Shown: positions 3,298 through 14,520 of the stretch, piece by piece
Position numbering within the stretch: the stretch's first letter is position 1
How the letters are laid out: every line of letters starts with the position of its first letter
Origin: Spartobacteria bacterium LR76
Lineage (GTDB): Bacteria > Verrucomicrobiota > Verrucomicrobiia > Chthoniobacterales > Terrimicrobiaceae
NCBI GenBank assembly: GCA_003054655.1
Contig: QAYZ01000009.1
Span: 65,751 to 129,750 of the forward strand
Direction: 5' to 3'
Length of the DNA stretch: 64,000 bases
Notes under the pieces: model-generated
Databases searched by the model: none
Told to the model about the DNA's origin: nothing
Seen by the model: the letters and a program-made list of their open reading frames with translations, nothing else
Program-made: the position numbers and the translations under genes

Positions 3298-3897
3298 CTA
3301 CACGAGCTTATCGCGTAGACCGCCAAAAGCGTGAGTAAGCTTCTTCATGCCCAGCTCGATACGGGTCTTTACGGTACCGAGAGGGGTATCGGTAAGCGCC
3401 GAGATCTCTCGCTGGCTTCGGTTCTCAAAATAGGCGAGTCGGATGACCTGTTGTTGCTTGGGCGGCAGCGTCGCGATCTGCTGGTGCAGCAGTTCCCGAA
3501 TGTCATCGCGGAAGGCGTCGCGCTCCACCACATGCGTCTCGTCGAAGGCCTTGTCCGGATGATTGCACGAGATCTCGTAGCGATCCGTGGCCCGACGGTA
3601 GGCGCTATGCTGGCGGAGGCGGTCGATCGCCCGACGCCGAGCCAGAGTGCAGAGCCAGCTCACGAGCTTGCCCTTGCGGGCAGAATAACTGTCTGCTCGG
3701 TCCCAGACCTGAAGAAAAACCTCCTGGAGGACATCCTCGGCCTCGGCTTCGTCATGGAGCACCTGCATGATGATCGATCTCAAAACCGTGCGATATCTCC
3801 GGTGCAACCGCTCAAGCGCCTGCGGGATTCTCTGCATCAATCCCTCCATCAACTCCTGGTCTTCTCCCGCCGTAATCTGTTCCATTGTGATTTCCAT
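3298..3897 (-). CDS. ECF-type RNA polymerase sigma factor
   Basis: A protein of about 199 residues with the two conserved sigma-70 regions of ECF factors. Region 2 contains the acidic DEAEAEDVLQEVFLQVWDR helix and an aromatic SWLCTLARRRAIDRLR segment for promoter melting. Region 4 carries LPPKQQQVIRLAYFENRSQREIS, then a TPLGTVKTRIELGMKKL recognition helix. An upstream in-frame ATG at 3957 would add 20 residues unlike the family, so 3897 (or 3885) is more likely. No anti-sigma gene is adjacent: the left neighbour is GT9 and the right one is the divergent treZ. The regulon is therefore unknown. It is distinct from the second ECF factor at 7950-8516. Confidence 0.85.
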   Translation of the reverse strand: MEITMEQITAGEDQELMEGLMQRIPQALERLHRRYRTVLRSIIMQVLHDEAEAEDVLQEVFLQVWDRADSYSARKGKLVSWLCTLARRRAIDRLRQHSAYRRATDRYEISCNHPDKAFDETHVVERDAFRDDIRELLHQQIATLPPKQQQVIRLAYFENRSQREISALTDTPLGTVKTRIELGMKKLTHAFGGLRDKLV

Positions 3898-4069
3898 AGG
3901 TTGTCTTGGGTTCGAGAGCAGACTAGCGTCGCTGACGCGTTCCTCCAATCGGTGCACCCTACGATTGGCGCATCAGCAAATCGCCTACCCCGTCAGGAAA
4001 CCCTGAGGAGCGTTTAGGGGTATTCCCTCGCTCGCAAGAATCGCTCAGGTACGATACTTAGCTGTGGAA

Positions 4070-5878
4070 ATGGAACACATGATCGGGGCGACCTGGACGG
4101 GCAACGCTGTATTTTACAGGGTGTGGGCACCAAAATTCAGCTCGGTTGCAGTGGAGGTTCATCGCGATGGGAAGACACGAACAATAGCTCTCTCCCAAGC
4201 CGAAGGGGGATACTTCATCGGGGAGGACCCCGAGGGTCGGCCCGGCGACACCTATGGATATCGACTGAATCATTCCGACAGAATATTCCCCGATCCCGCT
4301 TCGCGTGCGCTCAGCGGAGGAGTACATGGACTCTCTCTGGTTGTCGATCCAGCCGCCTTCAACTGGGCGGACCAGGGATGGAAGTCCCCCGCCTTGCGGG
4401 ATCTCGTCATTTACGAAGTGCATGTCGGCACATTCACTCCTGCCGGTACGTTTCAAGCCGCAAAAGAGCGTCTGCCTTACCTCCGGTCACTCGGCATCAC
4501 GGCGATCGAACTCATGCCGCTCGCGGATTTTCCCGGCACGCGCAACTGGGGTTACGACGGCGTGCAGATCTACGCTCCGGCCTCCTGCTACGGCACGCCC
4601 GATGATCTGCGGTCTCTCGTCGACGCCGCGCATGGCGAGGGCATCGCGGTGATCCTCGATGTCGTCTACAATCACCTCGGCCCGGATGGAAATTACCTCA
4701 CCGCATTCAGCCCCTACTACTTTCACTCCCGGCATCACACCCCGTGGGGGAATGGTTTCAACTTCGATGCGGAGCACTGCGCCCCGGTGCGTGGGTATTT
4801 CAGATCAAATCCCGGCTACTGGATGGACGAGTTTCACATCGACGGATTTCGTTTCGATGCCGCCCACGAGATCCAGGATGACACCACGCCCCACATCCTC
4901 GCCGAGATGACCGACGAGATCCACAAGCGCGGAGGTTTTGCCATCGCAGAGGATGACCGCAATGAAGCCCGGATGCTCGCTCCGACGGCGCAGGGCGGCA
5001 TGGGGTTTGATGGCGTGTGGGCCGATGACTTTCACCACAGCATCAGGGTGACCCTCACTGGAGAAACTCACTCCTATCTCGGGAACTTCGCGGGCGGAGC
5101 CAGAGAGGTCGGCGAGGTTCTCAGCGAGGGATGGCTGTACCACGGCCAGAAGACACCCGTGACGGGCAAACCCCGCGGCACCCCGGGCGGGCATCTGCCG
5201 CCGCATCAGTTCATTCACTGTCTTTCCAATCACGATCAGGTGGGCAACCGCGCCTTCGGAGACCGGATCAGTCAAACGGCCTCACTATCCGGTTATCGTG
5301 CCGTCTCAATGTTGCTATGCCTCTCTCCCTACACCCCGATGCTATTCATGGGGCAGGAGTGGGCGGCCACATCGCCCTTTCTTTTCTTTACGGATCATAA
5401 TGATCAGTTGGGCAAACTCGTCATCGAGGGGCGGCGCAGGGAGTTTGCCGCCTTTCCGGAATTTGCCGACCCCGCGACGCGCCTGCGTATCCCGAGTCCC
5501 CAGGCGCAAGAGACATTCCAACACTCCAAACTGCGATGGGACGAGATCGAAAGAGAGCCTCACGCGCTCATTCTGTCACTCTACCGCGAGTGCCTTCATC
5601 TGCGGCGCGAGGAAGCCACCTTCCGCCCGGAAGCGCGAGAAGGCTATCGCACGGAATGCGACGCGGATACGCTGCGGATACGATGGAGAGGTCCCGCTGC
5701 CGAGTGGCTGCTGATTACCCATCTGGGAGGAGCGTGTGAGATCTCCCTAGGGCGGACCTGGCGCTGCGTGCTGGGGAGCGAGGAAATCCGCTTCGGCGGT
5801 CATCGCACCGCCCTCACCTCGCTAGACTCACTTGTGTTTGACGGCCCGGAGTCCATTCTCCTTCACAACGAGGGGTAA
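4070..5878 (+). CDS. treZ: Malto-oligosyltrehalose trehalohydrolase
   Basis: A 602-residue GH13 enzyme that releases trehalose from maltooligosyl-trehalose. It has an N-terminal beta-sandwich (about 8-100), then a TIM barrel with the conserved DVVYNHLGPDGN loop, the nucleophile region DGFRFDAAHE (Asp about 263) and the general acid in AIAEDDRNE (Glu about 294). The FIHCLSNHDQVGNRAFGDR segment carries the third conserved Asp. These match TreZ better than a branching enzyme. The start is ambiguous between GTG 4064, ATG 4070 and ATG 4079; none has a clear Shine-Dalgarno. TreY, the usual partner that makes the substrate, is not in this window. The gene is divergent from the ECF sigma gene across a short promoter region. 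Confidence 0.92.
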   Translation: MEHMIGATWTGNAVFYRVWAPKFSSVAVEVHRDGKTRTIALSQAEGGYFIGEDPEGRPGDTYGYRLNHSDRIFPDPASRALSGGVHGLSLVVDPAAFNWADQGWKSPALRDLVIYEVHVGTFTPAGTFQAAKERLPYLRSLGITAIELMPLADFPGTRNWGYDGVQIYAPASCYGTPDDLRSLVDAAHGEGIAVILDVVYNHLGPDGNYLTAFSPYYFHSRHHTPWGNGFNFDAEHCAPVRGYFRSNPGYWMDEFHIDGFRFDAAHEIQDDTTPHILAEMTDEIHKRGGFAIAEDDRNEARMLAPTAQGGMGFDGVWADDFHHSIRVTLTGETHSYLGNFAGGAREVGEVLSEGWLYHGQKTPVTGKPRGTPGGHLPPHQFIHCLSNHDQVGNRAFGDRISQTASLSGYRAVSMLLCLSPYTPMLFMGQEWAATSPFLFFTDHNDQLGKLVIEGRRREFAAFPEFADPATRLRIPSPQAQETFQHSKLRWDEIEREPHALILSLYRECLHLRREEATFRPEAREGYRTECDADTLRIRWRGPAAEWLLITHLGGACEISLGRTWRCVLGSEEIRFGGHRTALTSLDSLVFDGPESILLHNEG

Positions 5879-6803: not shown

Positions 6804-6840
6804 GAGGGTTTTTCCCGGAAGCGGGATTGGACTCGTTATA
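6804..6840 (+). promoter_or_regulatory. Copy 1 of a shared upstream motif (candidate ECF promoter)
   Basis: Begins GAGGGTTTTTCC, carries CGGGATT at positions 19-25 and ACTC at 28-31, then GTTATA. The same arrangement, without gaps, occurs at 8524 and 8981 ahead of two other small exported-protein genes. Here the next start codon is 84 bp from the motif start, leaving a short leader with a GGTC-AAAAA-GACC hairpin. Confidence 0.6.
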
Positions 6841-7196: not shown

Positions 7197-7227
7197 TCCG
7201 GAGGCGAATGGTGCATTCGCCTCCGGA
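7197..7227. terminator. Stem-loop between small exported protein and CnrYXH-like operon
   Basis: A perfect 14-bp stem (TCCGGAGGCGAATG and its complement) closes a 3-base GTG loop. No T-run follows, so termination may be weak. It ends 19 bp before the next start codon, so it could also act as a leader structure on the operon mRNA. Confidence 0.65.
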
Positions 7228-7246: not shown

Positions 7247-7519
7247 ATGCAAGACGACCTTGGAAACCTGCTGAAATCCTGGCAGCCCGACCTCCCGGAA
7301 GCTTCGGATTTTCGCCGGACGGTATGGTTACGTATCGAGCAAACGCCCTCGGCACGAAGAATGTTGCCCATTCTTGAGTGGTTCATCCGCCCTCGTGTGG
7401 CGTTGGCCATCGTTGCGGTCGCCCTCGTCCTTGGTGGATTCGCCGGTGCCGCCACAGCGGAGCGCACCGACAGCGCCACGTATCTTCGCTCCGTCAATCC
7501 CTACGCCCGCCTCCGGTGA
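7247..7519 (+). CDS. Single-TM small protein, candidate anti-sigma factor (CnrY-like)
   Basis: A 90-residue protein with a cytoplasmic N-terminal stretch of about 50 residues containing LLKSWQPDLPEASDFRRTVWLRIEQ, one hydrophobic helix at about 52-72, and a tail of about 18 residues. This is the size and topology of CnrY (about 95 residues), which holds the sigma factor CnrH at the membrane by a short N-terminal helix. Its stop codon overlaps the GTG of the next gene (GTGA), and the third gene is an ECF sigma factor, giving the gene order cnrY-cnrX-cnrH. The role is inferred from topology and context, since such short anti-sigma factors have little sequence conservation. Confidence 0.68.
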   Translation: MQDDLGNLLKSWQPDLPEASDFRRTVWLRIEQTPSARRMLPILEWFIRPRVALAIVAVALVLGGFAGAATAERTDSATYLRSVNPYARLR

Positions 7520-7953
7520 AAAGAGCAATCGTCGTTTTCGCCCTCGTTCTCGTCGCCGCATTTGTGGCATTGGCAGTCTCCCGCCACGTATTCGCCAGCC
7601 ATTCGTCGATGGACTGGCTCCGCGACGAGTTTCACCTTACCGACGCCCAGATGGACAAGGCGGCGGCTCTGCACGCCGAGTATGAGGCTAGCTGCGAGAC
7701 CATGTGCCGTCGCATCGCGGAGACAGACGCCCGGCTTGCCTTGGCGATCCGATCAACCACCTCAATCACACCGGAAATCGCCGCCGCGATCGCCGAGACC
7801 GACCGCGTCCGCACCGAGTGCCGGATCGCAATGTTAAGCCATTTCTACCAAACCGCAGCCCTGATGCCTGAGAGCGAACGCCAGCGGTATCTGGAAAAGG
7901 TATTACCGACCGTCCTGCACCCCGGGGAAATGCACGACGATCATATGCGATGA
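7516..7953 (+). CDS. Periplasmic heavy-metal sensor/resistance protein (CnrX/CpxP-like)
   Basis: A 145-residue protein starting at a GTG that overlaps the previous stop. An N-terminal hydrophobic anchor (about 2-22) is followed by a mostly helical periplasmic domain of the heavy-metal-resistance type (CnrX, NccX, Spy and CpxP fold). A His-x4-Trp-Leu-x2-Glu-Phe-His-Leu-Thr stretch opens the domain, and the C-terminus carries a His-x3-Met-His-x2-His-Met cluster suited to metal binding. Two Cys occur near residues 62 and 66. In Cupriavidus, CnrX binds Ni/Co and releases the sigma factor from CnrY. The stop overlaps the sigma gene start by four bases (ATGA), indicating translational coupling. Metal specificity is not known. 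Confidence 0.78.
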   Translation: MKRAIVVFALVLVAAFVALAVSRHVFASHSSMDWLRDEFHLTDAQMDKAAALHAEYEASCETMCRRIAETDARLALAIRSTTSITPEIAAAIAETDRVRTECRIAMLSHFYQTAALMPESERQRYLEKVLPTVLHPGEMHDDHMR

Positions 7954-8516
7954 GTCCCGAACCCGACAGCGCTGCAATGCTGCGTCTCCAGGCGGGAGAC
8001 GACCTCGCGTTGAACGAATTGATGGATCGGTGGCGCACACGTGTCATCAGCTATCTCATTCGAATGGTGTCCAGTCAGACCACGGCCGTCGACCTGGCGC
8101 AGGAGACGTTTGTCCGCGTCTACAGCGCTCGCCAGAGTTATCGTCCGTCAGCGACATTTTCCACCTGGCTTTTCGCCATCGCGACGAATCTGGCCCGTCA
8201 TCATCTCCGCTGGCAGCGAAGGCACCCCGCCGTGTCCTTGGATGATCCCGTCGAAGGAGAAGCTCTCCATGACCGACTGCCATCTGCTTCAGGCACGCCC
8301 TCCGGAGATACTGTGAAATCCGAGCAGGCCGTCGCCGTGAAGCAGGCCATCGGCGATCTCCCTCAAGACCTTCGCGAAGCGGTAATCCTTTTCGAGTACG
8401 AAGGAATGTCCCATGCCGAGATAGCAGCCGTGGTCGGCTGCTCGGCAAAGGCCGTCGAAACTCGCCTGTACCGGGCGCGACAGATCCTTCGCCAAAATTT
8501 ACGGTTCCTTCTCTAG
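7950..8516 (+). CDS. ECF RNA polymerase sigma factor (CnrH-like position)
   Basis: A 188-residue sigma factor. Region 2 has AVDLAQETFVRVYSARQSYRPSA and an FSTWLFAIATNLARHHLRWQ melting segment; region 4 has LPQDLREAVILFEYEGMSHAEIA, then SAKAVETRLYRARQIL. CnrH has nearly the same length (191). It is translationally coupled to the periplasmic sensor and third in the operon. It probably activates its own operon and the small exported-protein genes around it; the shared motif at 6804, 8524 and 8981 is the natural candidate recognition sequence, but this pairing is an inference. The gene ends 7 bp before motif copy 2. Confidence 0.85.
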   Translation: MSPEPDSAAMLRLQAGDDLALNELMDRWRTRVISYLIRMVSSQTTAVDLAQETFVRVYSARQSYRPSATFSTWLFAIATNLARHHLRWQRRHPAVSLDDPVEGEALHDRLPSASGTPSGDTVKSEQAVAVKQAIGDLPQDLREAVILFEYEGMSHAEIAAVVGCSAKAVETRLYRARQILRQNLRFLL

Positions 8517-8523
8517 AAACTCC

Positions 8524-8556
8524 GAGGGTTTCCCCTTTTCACGGGATTTTACCCTT
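8524..8556 (+). promoter_or_regulatory. Copy 2 of the shared upstream motif, abutting a start codon
   Basis: GAGGGTTTCCCC, CGGGATT at positions 19-25 and ACCC at 28-31 align without gaps to the copy at 6804. The ATG of the next gene follows at position 34, so if this is a promoter the transcript would be leaderless or nearly so. No Shine-Dalgarno is visible. Confidence 0.6.
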
Positions 8557-8961: not shown

Positions 8962-9016
8962 GGGTTTTTCGAATTTCCCCGAGGGGTTTTTCCTTCTGCG
9001 GCTATTCACTCCTATC
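8961..9016 (+). promoter_or_regulatory. Copy 3 of the shared motif plus a 22-bp-spaced direct repeat
   Basis: From 8981 the sequence reads GAGGGGTTTTTCC with CGG at positions 19-21 and ACTC at 28-31, aligning without gaps to copies 1 and 2. GGGGTTTTT also occurs at 8961-8969 and again at 8983-8991, a direct repeat 22 bp apart (two helical turns), which could bind a dimeric regulator. The ATG follows at 9017. Confidence 0.55.
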
Positions 9017-13045: not shown

Positions 13046-13068
13046 GGCGCTGCCTCAATCGCAGCGCC
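13046..13068. terminator. Hairpin between convergent genes
   Basis: An 8-bp GGCGCTGC stem with a 7-base loop lies between the PEP-CTERM gene and the regulator gene and touches the latter's stop codon. No T-run, so efficiency as a terminator is uncertain. Confidence 0.5.
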
Positions 13069-13376
13069 TACTCGACATATCGCTCCAGCACGGAGAGGAG
13101 CTCGCGCAGGCGGCGCCTGCCCTCTTCCGGATGCTGGGCTCCCTCGATGCAGTGGTGCATGTGAATATTCACCACCTTCTCGGAAAGAGACTTTAGCGCC
13201 TTCCGTGCCGACACGAGCTGCATCAGCACATCCGCGCAATCCCGATCGGCCTCCAGCATTCGCTCGATACCATTGAGCTGCCCCACGATGCGGCGAAGGC
13301 GCGCCTTCAGCGCCTTGGTTTCCTCCTCGGGATGGTGATGCAGGTCAGTCGACATCGCGTGGAAATGATATGTCAT
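13068..13376 (-). CDS. CsoR/RcnR-family metal-responsive repressor, InrS-like ligand set
   Basis: A 102-residue all-helical DUF156 repressor. It has the hallmark KARLRRIVGQLNGIERMLEADRDCADVL block and a second helix with VVNIHMHHCIEG. Metal ligands by family position are Cys47, His72 and Cys76, with the same 25- and 4-residue spacing as Cys36-His61-Cys65 of CsoR. His15, 32 residues before Cys47, matches His21 of the nickel sensor InrS. The neighbour is a divergent RcnA-type Ni/Co exporter, which favours nickel or cobalt over copper. It should bind the G-tract operator in the shared intergenic region and release it when loaded with metal. An alternative start is the ATG at 13355. Confidence 0.85.
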   Translation of the reverse strand: MTYHFHAMSTDLHHHPEEETKALKARLRRIVGQLNGIERMLEADRDCADVLMQLVSARKALKSLSEKVVNIHMHHCIEGAQHPEEGRRRLRELLSVLERYVE

Positions 13377-13411
13377 GAACAGATTTCCGCCAGAATAAGC
13401 GTTGCTTCATT

Positions 13412-13435
13412 ATAGGGGTAAGGGGTATACCCTAT
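13412..13435. promoter_or_regulatory. G-tract inverted-repeat operator for the divergent regulator/exporter pair
   Basis: ATAGGG at 13412 and CCCTAT at 13430-13435 form an inverted repeat around G-tracts, with a perfect 10-bp palindrome GGGTATACCC at 13423-13432. CsoR/RcnR proteins bind such AT-flanked G-tract palindromes. A TTGCTT (13402) and TATACC (13426) pair with 18-bp spacing could be the exporter promoter, so repressor binding would cover the -10. It ends 2 bp before the GTG start of the exporter. Confidence 0.72.
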
Positions 13436-13437
13436 CC

Positions 13438-14520
13438 GTGACATCATTCCAGGAATTAATCACCCAGGGAGCGGCAAACGCCTGGCTGTTCATTCCGACG
13501 GCGGTGCTCCTCGGCATCCTGCATGGCTTGGAACCCGGCCACTCCAAGACGATGATGGCGGCCTTCATCATCGCGATCCGCGGCACGGTCGCCCAGGCCG
13601 TCTTGCTCGGGCTGTCGGCCGCGATTTCTCACTCTTTCGTCATCTGGCTGCTGGCAGCCACGGCTCTGCATTTCGGCTCCCGGTGGGATGTGGAAACCTC
13701 GGAGCCGTATTTTCAGATGATTTCGGGCATCATCATCGTCGGCCTGGCCGCCTGGATGTTCTGGCGCACGCGACGCGATCAAACCGACGCAACCCATCAC
13801 GACCACCACCATCACGGAGAAGACGGCGGCGGACCTCATGGGGGACAAATTGTCTCCACGGATCGCGGTGAGATCGAAATCTGCATCCACGAGGACGGCG
13901 TGCCCCCGCGATTCCGGGTCTATGCGCCACTCACGCAAACCATTGCCCCAATCGTGGAGGTCTCCCGTCCCGACGATTCGAGGGAAACCTACCATTTCAC
14001 CCGGTCCGGAGAATACTGGGAGGCCACCACCGAGTTGCCCGAGCCGCATGCGTTCACGGCCACCCTCCGACTGGAACCCGGCGGTCCCCTTTACAGCATT
14101 GCCTTCGAGGAACACGAGCATCTGGAGCTTTCCGACAGCGGCTTCCAAGATGCGCATGAACGCGAACACGCCGCCGATATTGCGCGCCGATTCCGCAACC
14201 GCCATGTCACCACGAGCCAGATCGTGCTCTTCGGTCTCACTGGCGGCCTGCTCCCCTGCCCCGCCGCGATCACCGTTTTGCTCGTCTGCCTGCAACTGAA
14301 GCAATTCATCCTCGGTTTCACCCTCGTCGCGTGTTTCAGCTTCGGCCTGGCCCTGACCATGGTGACCGTCGGTGCTGCCGCCGCGTGGGGGGTCCAGCAC
14401 GCAACCAAGAGGTTCTCGTGGTTCTCCTCGCTGGCTGCCCGCGCCCCGTATTTTTCCAGCGCCATCCTCCTCGTTTTGGGCCTCTTCATCGCCTGGACGG
14501 GGGCAAAGCATATCCTTTAA
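13438..14520 (+). CDS. rcnA: Nickel/cobalt efflux transporter (RcnA-type) with inserted domain
   Basis: A 360-residue NiCoT-superfamily exporter. It starts with the RcnA-typical TSFQELITQG, then the signature HGLEPGHSKTMMAAFIIA in the first helices, a His-rich loop (DATHHDHHHHGED, about residues 120-133), and a second signature with GLLPCPAAITVLL in the C-terminal half. About six membrane helices are visible. Between the His loop and the C-terminal helices lies a soluble, beta-rich stretch of roughly 95 residues (about 137-231) that makes it about 85 residues longer than E. coli RcnA. GTG 13438 is chosen rather than TTG 13402, because the latter would place the operator inside the coding region. 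Expected function: export of Ni(II)/Co(II) from the cytoplasm, under the divergent repressor. Confidence 0.9.
   Translation: MTSFQELITQGAANAWLFIPTAVLLGILHGLEPGHSKTMMAAFIIAIRGTVAQAVLLGLSAAISHSFVIWLLAATALHFGSRWDVETSEPYFQMISGIIIVGLAAWMFWRTRRDQTDATHHDHHHHGEDGGGPHGGQIVSTDRGEIEICIHEDGVPPRFRVYAPLTQTIAPIVEVSRPDDSRETYHFTRSGEYWEATTELPEPHAFTATLRLEPGGPLYSIAFEEHEHLELSDSGFQDAHEREHAADIARRFRNRHVTTSQIVLFGLTGGLLPCPAAITVLLVCLQLKQFILGFTLVACFSFGLALTMVTVGAAAAWGVQHATKRFSWFSSLAARAPYFSSAILLVLGLFIAWTGAKHIL

Follow-up and report, generated by a model that had tools for sequence, protein, structure and literature searches.

A three-gene operon of CnrYXH-like layout with a predicted promoter of its own in Spartobacteria bacterium LR76 and other Verrucomicrobia

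Layout of the operon and its recurrence

We analysed 64,000 nt of contig QAYZ01000009.1 from Spartobacteria bacterium LR76 (positions 65,751-129,750, forward strand; this whole stretch is called the window, and all coordinates refer to it), in which three consecutive genes form an operon encoding a candidate anti-sigma factor, a membrane-anchored periplasmic sensor and an extracytoplasmic function (ECF) sigma factor (Table 1). A preliminary description had compared this operon with CnrYXH of Cupriavidus in gene order, product sizes (90, 145 and 188 residues), four-base overlaps and topology, and each of these features holds: the reading frames are present, the 7247/7516 and 7516/7950 junctions are 4-nt overlaps (GTGA and ATGA), the architecture of a one-transmembrane anti-sigma, a periplasmic sensor and an ECF sigma stands, and the reference operon of pMOL28 (CnrY 95, CnrX 148 and CnrH 191 residues) has the identical order, with overlaps there too. 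The verrucomicrobial host proposed at the same time agrees with the nearest named relative, a Terrimicrobiaceae locus (L035) with identities of 52, 44 and 56% for the three proteins.

Table 1. Features of the operon and its surroundings, in window coordinates; promoter scores are those of the weight matrix described below.
Feature	Position	Strand	Description
P1, predicted promoter	6804-6834	+	-35 GAGGGTTT at 6804-6811, 13-nt spacer, -10 region 6825-6834; upstream of gene 6888 and so of the whole operon; score 21.4
P0006 gene	6888-7187	+	predicted first operon gene; 99-aa exported Cys-containing protein, signal-like N-terminus by eye
Inverted repeat	7197-7227		perfect, 14 bp with a 3-nt loop; between gene 6888 and the anti-sigma gene
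Anti-sigma gene	7247-7519	+	90 aa; single hydrophobic helix; predicted short helices 3-11, 20-32 and 35-47, membrane helix about 49-71
Sensor gene	7516-7953	+	GTG start; 145 aa; hydrophobic helix at the N-terminus; predicted membrane-anchored, periplasmic, CnrX fold
ECF sigma gene (P0003)	7950-8516	+	188 aa; Sigma70_r2 and r4_2 above cut-off
P2, predicted promoter	8524-8554	+	GAGGGTTT, N13, GATTTTACCC; before gene 8557; score 23.3
P0004 gene	8557-8961	+	predicted target behind P2; 134-aa exported His-rich protein
P3, predicted promoter	8981-9011	+	GAGGGGTT, N13, CTATTCACTC; before gene 9017; score 20.1
P0005 gene	9017-9448	+	predicted target behind P3; 143-aa exported DUF3347-like protein

The same gene order recurs widely in the phylum. 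A search of 387 verrucomicrobial genomes with the sensor alone (E up to 1e-6) found it in 40, and a 53-row sensor profile (E up to 1e-8) reached 69, the weaker of which may represent other Metal_resist proteins; a plasmid search with the sensor gave no match. The order anti-sigma, sensor, sigma was present in 26 of 29 sensor-recruited loci (L004-L032), with the anti-sigma frame identified by eye in L023, L027, L029 and L030; no sigma gene lay within the 3.4 kb examined in L004 and L012, and L025 is a 1.7-kb contig end in which no triplet was read. A sigma-based scan of named genomes, from which the best 80 loci were kept, yielded 64 loci that are verrucomicrobial by title (one titled only 'bacterium'), while the other 16, all but one from acidobacterial lineages by title, serve as controls. 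Among these best 80 loci the triplet order was found in 56, plus two fusions, so that an anti-sigma and a sensor stand directly upstream of the sigma in 58 of the 64 verrucomicrobial loci. The six remaining ones comprise two with an anti-sigma/sensor pair elsewhere in the locus (L065 and L074), three interrupted by contig ends (L062, L073 and L082) and one, L079 (sigma 4131-4655), without such a pair in the 14.7 kb examined. Since the order recurs in both recruitments, it is not a chance arrangement. Four-nucleotide overlaps were counted at 33 anti-sigma/sensor and 22 sensor/sigma junctions of the 56 triplets, the starts having been picked by a script with a preference for such overlaps.

In the two fusions, both from Puniceicoccaceae (L095, 9248-9985; L111, 9193-9954), anti-sigma and sensor are joined in a single protein encoded before the sigma gene. 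The anti-sigma part covers residues 18-113 and 17-117 and the sensor part residues 125-232 and 156-248, respectively, the latter match in L111 being weak (0.0012, and not recovered by the 53-row profile). The succession of an anti-sigma domain, a single hydrophobic stretch and a sensor domain, clear in L095 and weak in L111, agrees with an anti-sigma in the cytoplasm working together with a sensor in the periplasm.

Relationships of the three proteins

By sequence profile and by predicted fold the sensor is a relative of CnrX and NccX, the profile being the stronger evidence. NccX and CnrX headed a PDB search with the single sequence (7e-4 and 0.006), rose to 7.3e-10 and 5.2e-8 with a 29-row profile of the family, and hhalign of the family against CnrX gave 96%. 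The structural model (mean predicted local distance difference test score, pLDDT, 93.7; helices 2-26, 31-39, 43-79, 86-114, 119-134 and 138-142) found CnrX chain 2y3d_A as its best Foldseek match (probability 1.00, template modelling (TM) score 0.78 over the target, E 1.1e-3 at best, none below 1e-3). CnrX was likewise the top match in VIA-align, with a Z score of 10.6 over 105 residues against 8 to 8.8 for the best other folds (8.7 for ZraP) and 7.3 for Spy and CpxP, although all of these lie below the value of about 13 under which, by the program's warning, helical bundles can share an arrangement. Two further results count against the assignment: the LR76 sensor scored 28.0 bits with Metal_resist (PF13801), below the gathering cut-off of 29.2, although 21 of 29 family members match it at E up to 0.01, and the same 29-row profile also matched the unrelated coiled coil Bicaudal D (1.7e-4). 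Even so, the kinship with CnrX is stronger than the preliminary description was able to judge. A second Metal_resist match in the LR76 genome (L002) was set aside as a Spy-like frame by eye, with no sigma or anti-sigma gene seen in 3.2 kb.

The residues that bind metal in CnrX are largely changed. Its nickel/cobalt ligands include H42, H46 and H119; E63, taken from PDB titles, and M123, from PMC7689651, also belong to the set. The profile alignment, ungapped with an offset of 10, places M32, R36, H53, H109 and T113 opposite H42, H46, E63, H119 and M123, respectively, so that the CnrX ligand set is not kept in the LR76 sensor, although a pairwise alignment with one gap puts H42 and H46 at D33 and D37 instead. 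Conservation was counted over 84 distinct sensors, including that of the window and the frame-shifted L034 (scored as lacking C102 and H109), with only exact duplicates merged (L005/L056 are exact, L047/L049 near duplicates). Position 113 is Met in two of them, and the family has instead a set of three cysteines, a CX3C pair plus a third Cys (C60, C64 and C102), complete in 74 of 84; individually, C60 is present in 82, C64 in 80, C102 in 75, H109 in 75, H53 in 71 and Y56 in 81. Helices 43-79 and 86-114 of the model are antiparallel to each other about residue 82-83, a register in which C64 and C102 should face one another, with C60 one turn off. Met123 is required for CnrX signalling and conserved in CnrX homologues, according to the available part of PMC7689651, and because this residue is lost and the ligand positions are changed, the family seems to use a chemistry other than that of CnrX. 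A single genome carries both an operon with a CnrX-like Glu/His/Met sensor (L100, 292-750) and one of the Cys type (L084, 1056-1532).

The anti-sigma matched no family in Pfam or NCBIfam. Its own family shares the motif LL..W.......F...VW.RI, then a membrane helix and Y..S(I/V)(D/N)P in a short periplasmic tail, and the monomer model (mean pLDDT 80.7, predicted TM score 0.39) places the short helices of Table 1 ahead of the membrane helix. Homology with CnrY was rejected on uniformly negative comparisons: none of 29 anti-sigmas matched the CnrY family NF033790 at E up to 1 (hmmscan, NCBIfam), which CnrY itself matches with 139 bits; a profile search of the PDB gave no credible match; and two hhalign runs against CnrY, represented by six plasmid records only, gave 0.4-0.7%. 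By every comparison made, the anti-sigma is thus not detectably related to CnrY, and the doubt that the preliminary description had voiced on this point was justified; weak matches led to class I anti-sigmas instead. In the sigma relatives outside the phylum, the next gene downstream encodes a zinc-motif protein in 15 of 16 loci (none was found in L112), and the verrucomicrobial anti-sigmas align with these acidobacterial proteins only past the zinc motif (hhalign 92-93%, E 5.7e-7 and 4.6e-7, each a single comparison). Similarly, four of eight verrucomicrobial members scanned matched NF052375 (217 positions) over a span of 42-125, entering at 42-49, whereas two acidobacterial proteins entered at 3-4; at large, 11 of 29 anti-sigmas gave weak matches to this model that stayed under its curated cut-off (best 1.6e-4), and the one from the window gave none. 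The motif HX3CX2C, described in the available part of PMC7406223 as the zinc motif of class I anti-sigmas (ASDI), is absent from all 29 and all 51 family sequences examined. The same part of that source has CnrY bind through a pair of helices mimicking helices 1 and 4 of the class I proteins; in this binding mode, that of class II, the pair embraces sigma 2 and sigma 4. Our reading, from weak scores, is that the verrucomicrobial protein may be a class I anti-sigma minus its zinc domain, CnrY-like in size.

The sigma is not especially CnrH-like as judged from sequence. CnrH ranked tenth of 27 in a PDB search with it, after chains named sigma-H, sigma-E, SigW, SigE and SigH, and reached 33% identity and 65 bits, whereas all 80 relatives, themselves selected by similarity, reached 119 bits or more. 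A second ECF-type sigma gene (219 aa, 3298-3957, minus strand) lies about 3.3 kb upstream of the operon.

A predicted promoter and its candidate targets

The upstream regions of the relatives contain a bipartite element that was first spotted by eye, the regular expression being written afterwards, so that only its spacing constitutes an open test. GAGGGWT and NGTNNN stood at a spacing of 14 in 19 of 56 upstream regions (0.08 expected from shuffles), compared with at most one region at any of 17 other spacings; the -35 half alone occurred in 20 of 56 regions on the forward and in 11 of 56 on the reverse strand. The promoter of the sigma is likely GAGGGWTT-N13-NGTATTAC, a prediction that superseded our idea of a GGGTTTTTC element close to the ATG. 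A weight matrix was then iterated on the upstream regions of 54 relatives, using 51 sites, with the window, L035 (a close relative) and L100 (scant upstream sequence) excluded and no site above 7 bits in L086, L036 and L089. Among the 127,934 positions of the window, it ranked the sites at 8524, 6804 and 8981 first to third, which is an independent test because training had left the window out. P1-P3 are the only window sites above 17, the fourth scoring 16.3 and the fifth 8.9; the fourth (-20190) was dropped because it lies inside a long open frame. At scores of 17 or more, the matrix found 79 sites across 1.0 Mb from the 64 verrucomicrobial loci, whereas 211 kb from the 16 controls contained none; of the 79, 41 lie at the operon itself and had mostly served in training. 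A narrow pattern built from P1-P3, which recovers them by construction and so speaks only to the rarity of close copies, had no further exact copy in the 4.75-Mb LR76 genome and one copy with a mismatch, on contig C11 (L121), which was discarded as having no clear gene behind it.

The distance from site to anti-sigma gene, available in 51 loci, was 313-528 nt in 25 and within 166 nt in 26. A plausible small exported leader protein, as encoded in the window, occupies the gap in 21 of the 25 long-distance loci (by script and eye), the script-picked frames of the other four (L040, L050, L059 and L071) looking wrong; these leaders are of several kinds, some Cys- and Met-rich (L034, L037, L056 and L076) and others not. 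The -35 element lies 34 nt from the ATG in L058, L077, L087 and L094, 33 nt at P2 and 36 nt at P3, from which we infer that the mRNAs starting at these six sites are leaderless or nearly so.

Candidate targets in the window are few. P0006 has no Pfam family, and its sole homologue, in L035 (E 8.8e-9), also has a promoter site upstream (17.6). P0004 matched nothing in Pfam or NCBIfam and had no homologue at E 1e-3 among the relatives' loci then compared. P0005 scored 23.7 bits with DUF3347 (cut-off 25.5) and 45 bits with NF047615 (1.5e-11; cut-off 100); homologues of it stand close downstream of strong sites in L060 (32.5) and L068 (21.1) and behind weaker ones in L085 (14.4) and L100 (15.3), one in L096 has no site in front of it, and four long CusB-like adaptor frames also count among the homologues. 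Elsewhere in the relatives, the sites away from the operon precede 15 genes for small exported CCxxC proteins labelled YHS-like (12 by script and three, in L037, L040 and L050, by eye), five for small CxxC proteins, three multicopper-oxidase-like genes (two being near duplicates), two DUF3347-like genes, one CusB-like gene (in L048, by eye) and one anti-sigma gene elsewhere, while 11 of the 79 sites precede other genes or none.

The inverted repeat at 7197-7227 is perhaps a processing or attenuation hairpin, since terminator prediction did not call it. A scan of the locus called no sigma-70-type promoter, and an Rfam scan matched a tRNA alone. Further downstream, a gene for a CsoR/RcnR-family repressor (13068-13376, minus strand) and one for a NicO nickel/cobalt exporter (13402-14520, plus strand) are divergent and probably form a separate metal module; the matrix scan of the window found no promoter site near the NicO gene. 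At the window's start, positions 6-142 hold about 11 copies of a 12-bp tandem repeat, GTTGGCGTGGCT, which can be read as a WLLA repeat.

Predicted signal, mechanism and alternatives

The genes around the operons of relatives and those linked to their promoters look copper-type, which favours copper over nickel or cobalt as the signal. A YHS-like, Cu-ATPase-type, multicopper-oxidase-like or resistance-nodulation-division (RND)-adaptor neighbour is present in 39 of 58 loci versus none of the 16 controls, although these come from other phyla and have shorter flanks, 'YHS-like' is a label given by eye whose scanned representative had no NCBIfam match, and tblastn at 1e-8 may include other P-type ATPases. 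Among the representatives scanned, the two ATPases scored above the cut-off for copper ATPases and the two RND pumps above that for CusA/CzcA, but the oxidase fell below the copper-resistance cut-off and the adaptor passed a general RND model only, the CusB-type model being below cut-off. Sorting the RND neighbours by metal through a short motif was abandoned as it did not separate them.

These reservations weigh against a copper-responsive system, as do several other observations. In LR76, the products of genes 6888, 8557 and 9017 have weak or no family names, and two clusters elsewhere in its genome, one with Cu-ATPase, adaptor and CusA-type genes (L134) and a second with a CusA-type gene (L135), are without the promoter (best scores 6.6 and 8.8), which leaves this genome with no direct link between the switch and copper efflux; with the narrow pattern and these two clusters examined, no efflux gene was found behind a promoter site. 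C102 is missing in nine of the 84 sensors, and those of L100 and L029 lack all three cysteines and have Glu, His and Met at CnrX positions 63, 119 and 123. Both fusions are also without the three cysteines, by eye, and may answer to another signal.

We propose, with a probability of roughly 0.6, that the three gene products make up an ECF sigma switch across the membrane, with the layout of CnrYXH, a soft-metal sensor and a regulon governed by P1-P3. With its short helices in the cytoplasm, the anti-sigma would keep the sigma at the inner membrane; the anchored sensor, its CnrX-type helical domain in the periplasm, would touch the periplasmic tail of the anti-sigma, a contact that the conservation of this tail and the fused homologues suggest. 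The signal would be a soft metal ion, most likely Cu(I), bound by the thiols of C60, C64 and C102 with H53 or H109 nearby, and the metal-bound sensor would alter its grip on the anti-sigma and set the sigma free. RNA polymerase carrying the freed sigma would then read GAGGGWTT-N13-NGTATTAC promoters, for which the support is statistical: P1 for the operon and its leader gene 6888, P2 for gene 8557 and P3 for gene 9017, giving autoregulation and a few exported metal-binding or metal-handling proteins. A wider version falls just short of even odds in our estimate. It holds that this is a phylum-wide verrucomicrobial copper-stress regulon, in which a CnrX-fold sensor was switched from Met/His/Glu nickel/cobalt binding to three-thiolate Cu(I) binding, the anti-sigma is a class I protein minus its zinc domain, and the CnrYXH layout arose two times, each time around the same sensor fold but with anti-sigma and sigma from different lineages.

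A true CnrYXH system sensing nickel or cobalt as in Cupriavidus would share the gene order, sizes, overlaps and sensor fold seen here, and could draw on the CsoR/RcnR-family repressor and NicO exporter 4.5-6 kb downstream and on the Glu/His/Met arrangement of two of the 84 sensors. It is nevertheless very improbable, given that M32, R36 and T113 replace H42, H46 and M123 in the profile alignment, that Met recurs at 113 in just two sensors despite its necessity for CnrX signalling (PMC7689651, available part), that the anti-sigma is not CnrY-like, and that the NicO gene has no promoter site nearby, the only window sites above 17 being P1-P3. The name 'CnrYXH-like' in the preliminary description holds for layout and sensor; the nickel or cobalt that it implies is not supported, because the CnrX ligands are largely replaced, a three-Cys set is added and the neighbours and promoter-linked genes in relatives look copper-type.

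Under oxidative or disulfide stress the cysteines might instead be joined in a disulfide, or they might react with other soft metals (Ag, Hg, Cd or Zn), so that the switch would respond to thiol state or soft metals and not to copper specifically. A CX3C pair with a third Cys in an oxidising compartment, and LR76 targets that are not named copper genes, would suit this explanation, which we consider unlikely in view of the CnrX fold, the conservation of H53 and H109 (71 and 75 of 84) and the copper-type genes around relatives. We give about the same low weight to a sensor that is a Spy/CpxP/ZraP-like chaperone shielding the anti-sigma, with the sigma freed by regulated cleavage of the anti-sigma and not by an allosteric pull. 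Those three proteins do appear further down the fold list, two of 29 family members match ZraP weakly and four of 29 the LTXXQ family, and the same question of proteolysis attaches to AabA/AabB of the Acinetobacter SigAb system in the available part of PMC12153292, whereas CnrX outranks these folds (Z 10.6 versus 8.7 for ZraP and 7.3 for Spy and CpxP).

Set beside known systems, the metal switch proposed here shares with CnrYXH and NccYXH of Cupriavidus metallidurans the gene order, overlaps, sizes, topology and a sequence-related CnrX-fold sensor, and differs from them in the largely changed ligand positions and added three-Cys set of its sensor, in an anti-sigma unrelated by every comparison made, in a sigma not especially close to CnrH, and in having a promoter of its own and copper-type neighbours. 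Its mode of action seems to be that of CnrYXH, yet anti-sigma, sigma and ligand set all place it outside that family, and for these reasons it looks like the CnrYXH layout reassembled from other parts. The verrucomicrobial anti-sigma may be related to the class I anti-sigmas (here acidobacterial, NF052375-like), with which it aligns weakly from after the zinc motif up to or into the membrane helix, but it has no HX3CX2C and its gene lies upstream of the sigma, those of the acidobacterial proteins lying downstream. From its description in the available part of PMC12153292, the Acinetobacter SigAb-AabA-AabB system is alike in having an ECF sigma, a small one-transmembrane anti-sigma (modelled there as CnrY-like) and a periplasmic partner, with SigAb activity raised by copper; unlike the LR76 operon it has the sigma gene first, and that part mentions no CnrX-type cysteine sensor. 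CorE-type sigmas of Myxococcus, to judge from the available part of PMC10141476, are likewise ECF sigmas linked to copper (putatively so here), but CorE is reported to act under its own Cys-rich C-terminal extension and not under an anti-sigma, whereas P0003 ends directly after region 4.

The layout and the sensor fold were thus already known from CnrYXH, and a copper-responsive sigma with a membrane anti-sigma from SigAb (PMC12153292, available part), while the literature searched, most subscription papers being outside that search, yielded no account of the verrucomicrobial system, of its promoter or of its cysteine sensor. Collectively, if the proposal is right, the Verrucomicrobia would gain a defined transmembrane metal-signalling route with a promoter, candidate targets and named sensor residues; sensor and anti-sigma would have evolved separately, and a small class II-like anti-sigma could arise independently of CnrY. 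The operons of L084 and L100, with and without the three cysteines in one genome, would then offer a natural test of how the CnrX fold chooses its metal.

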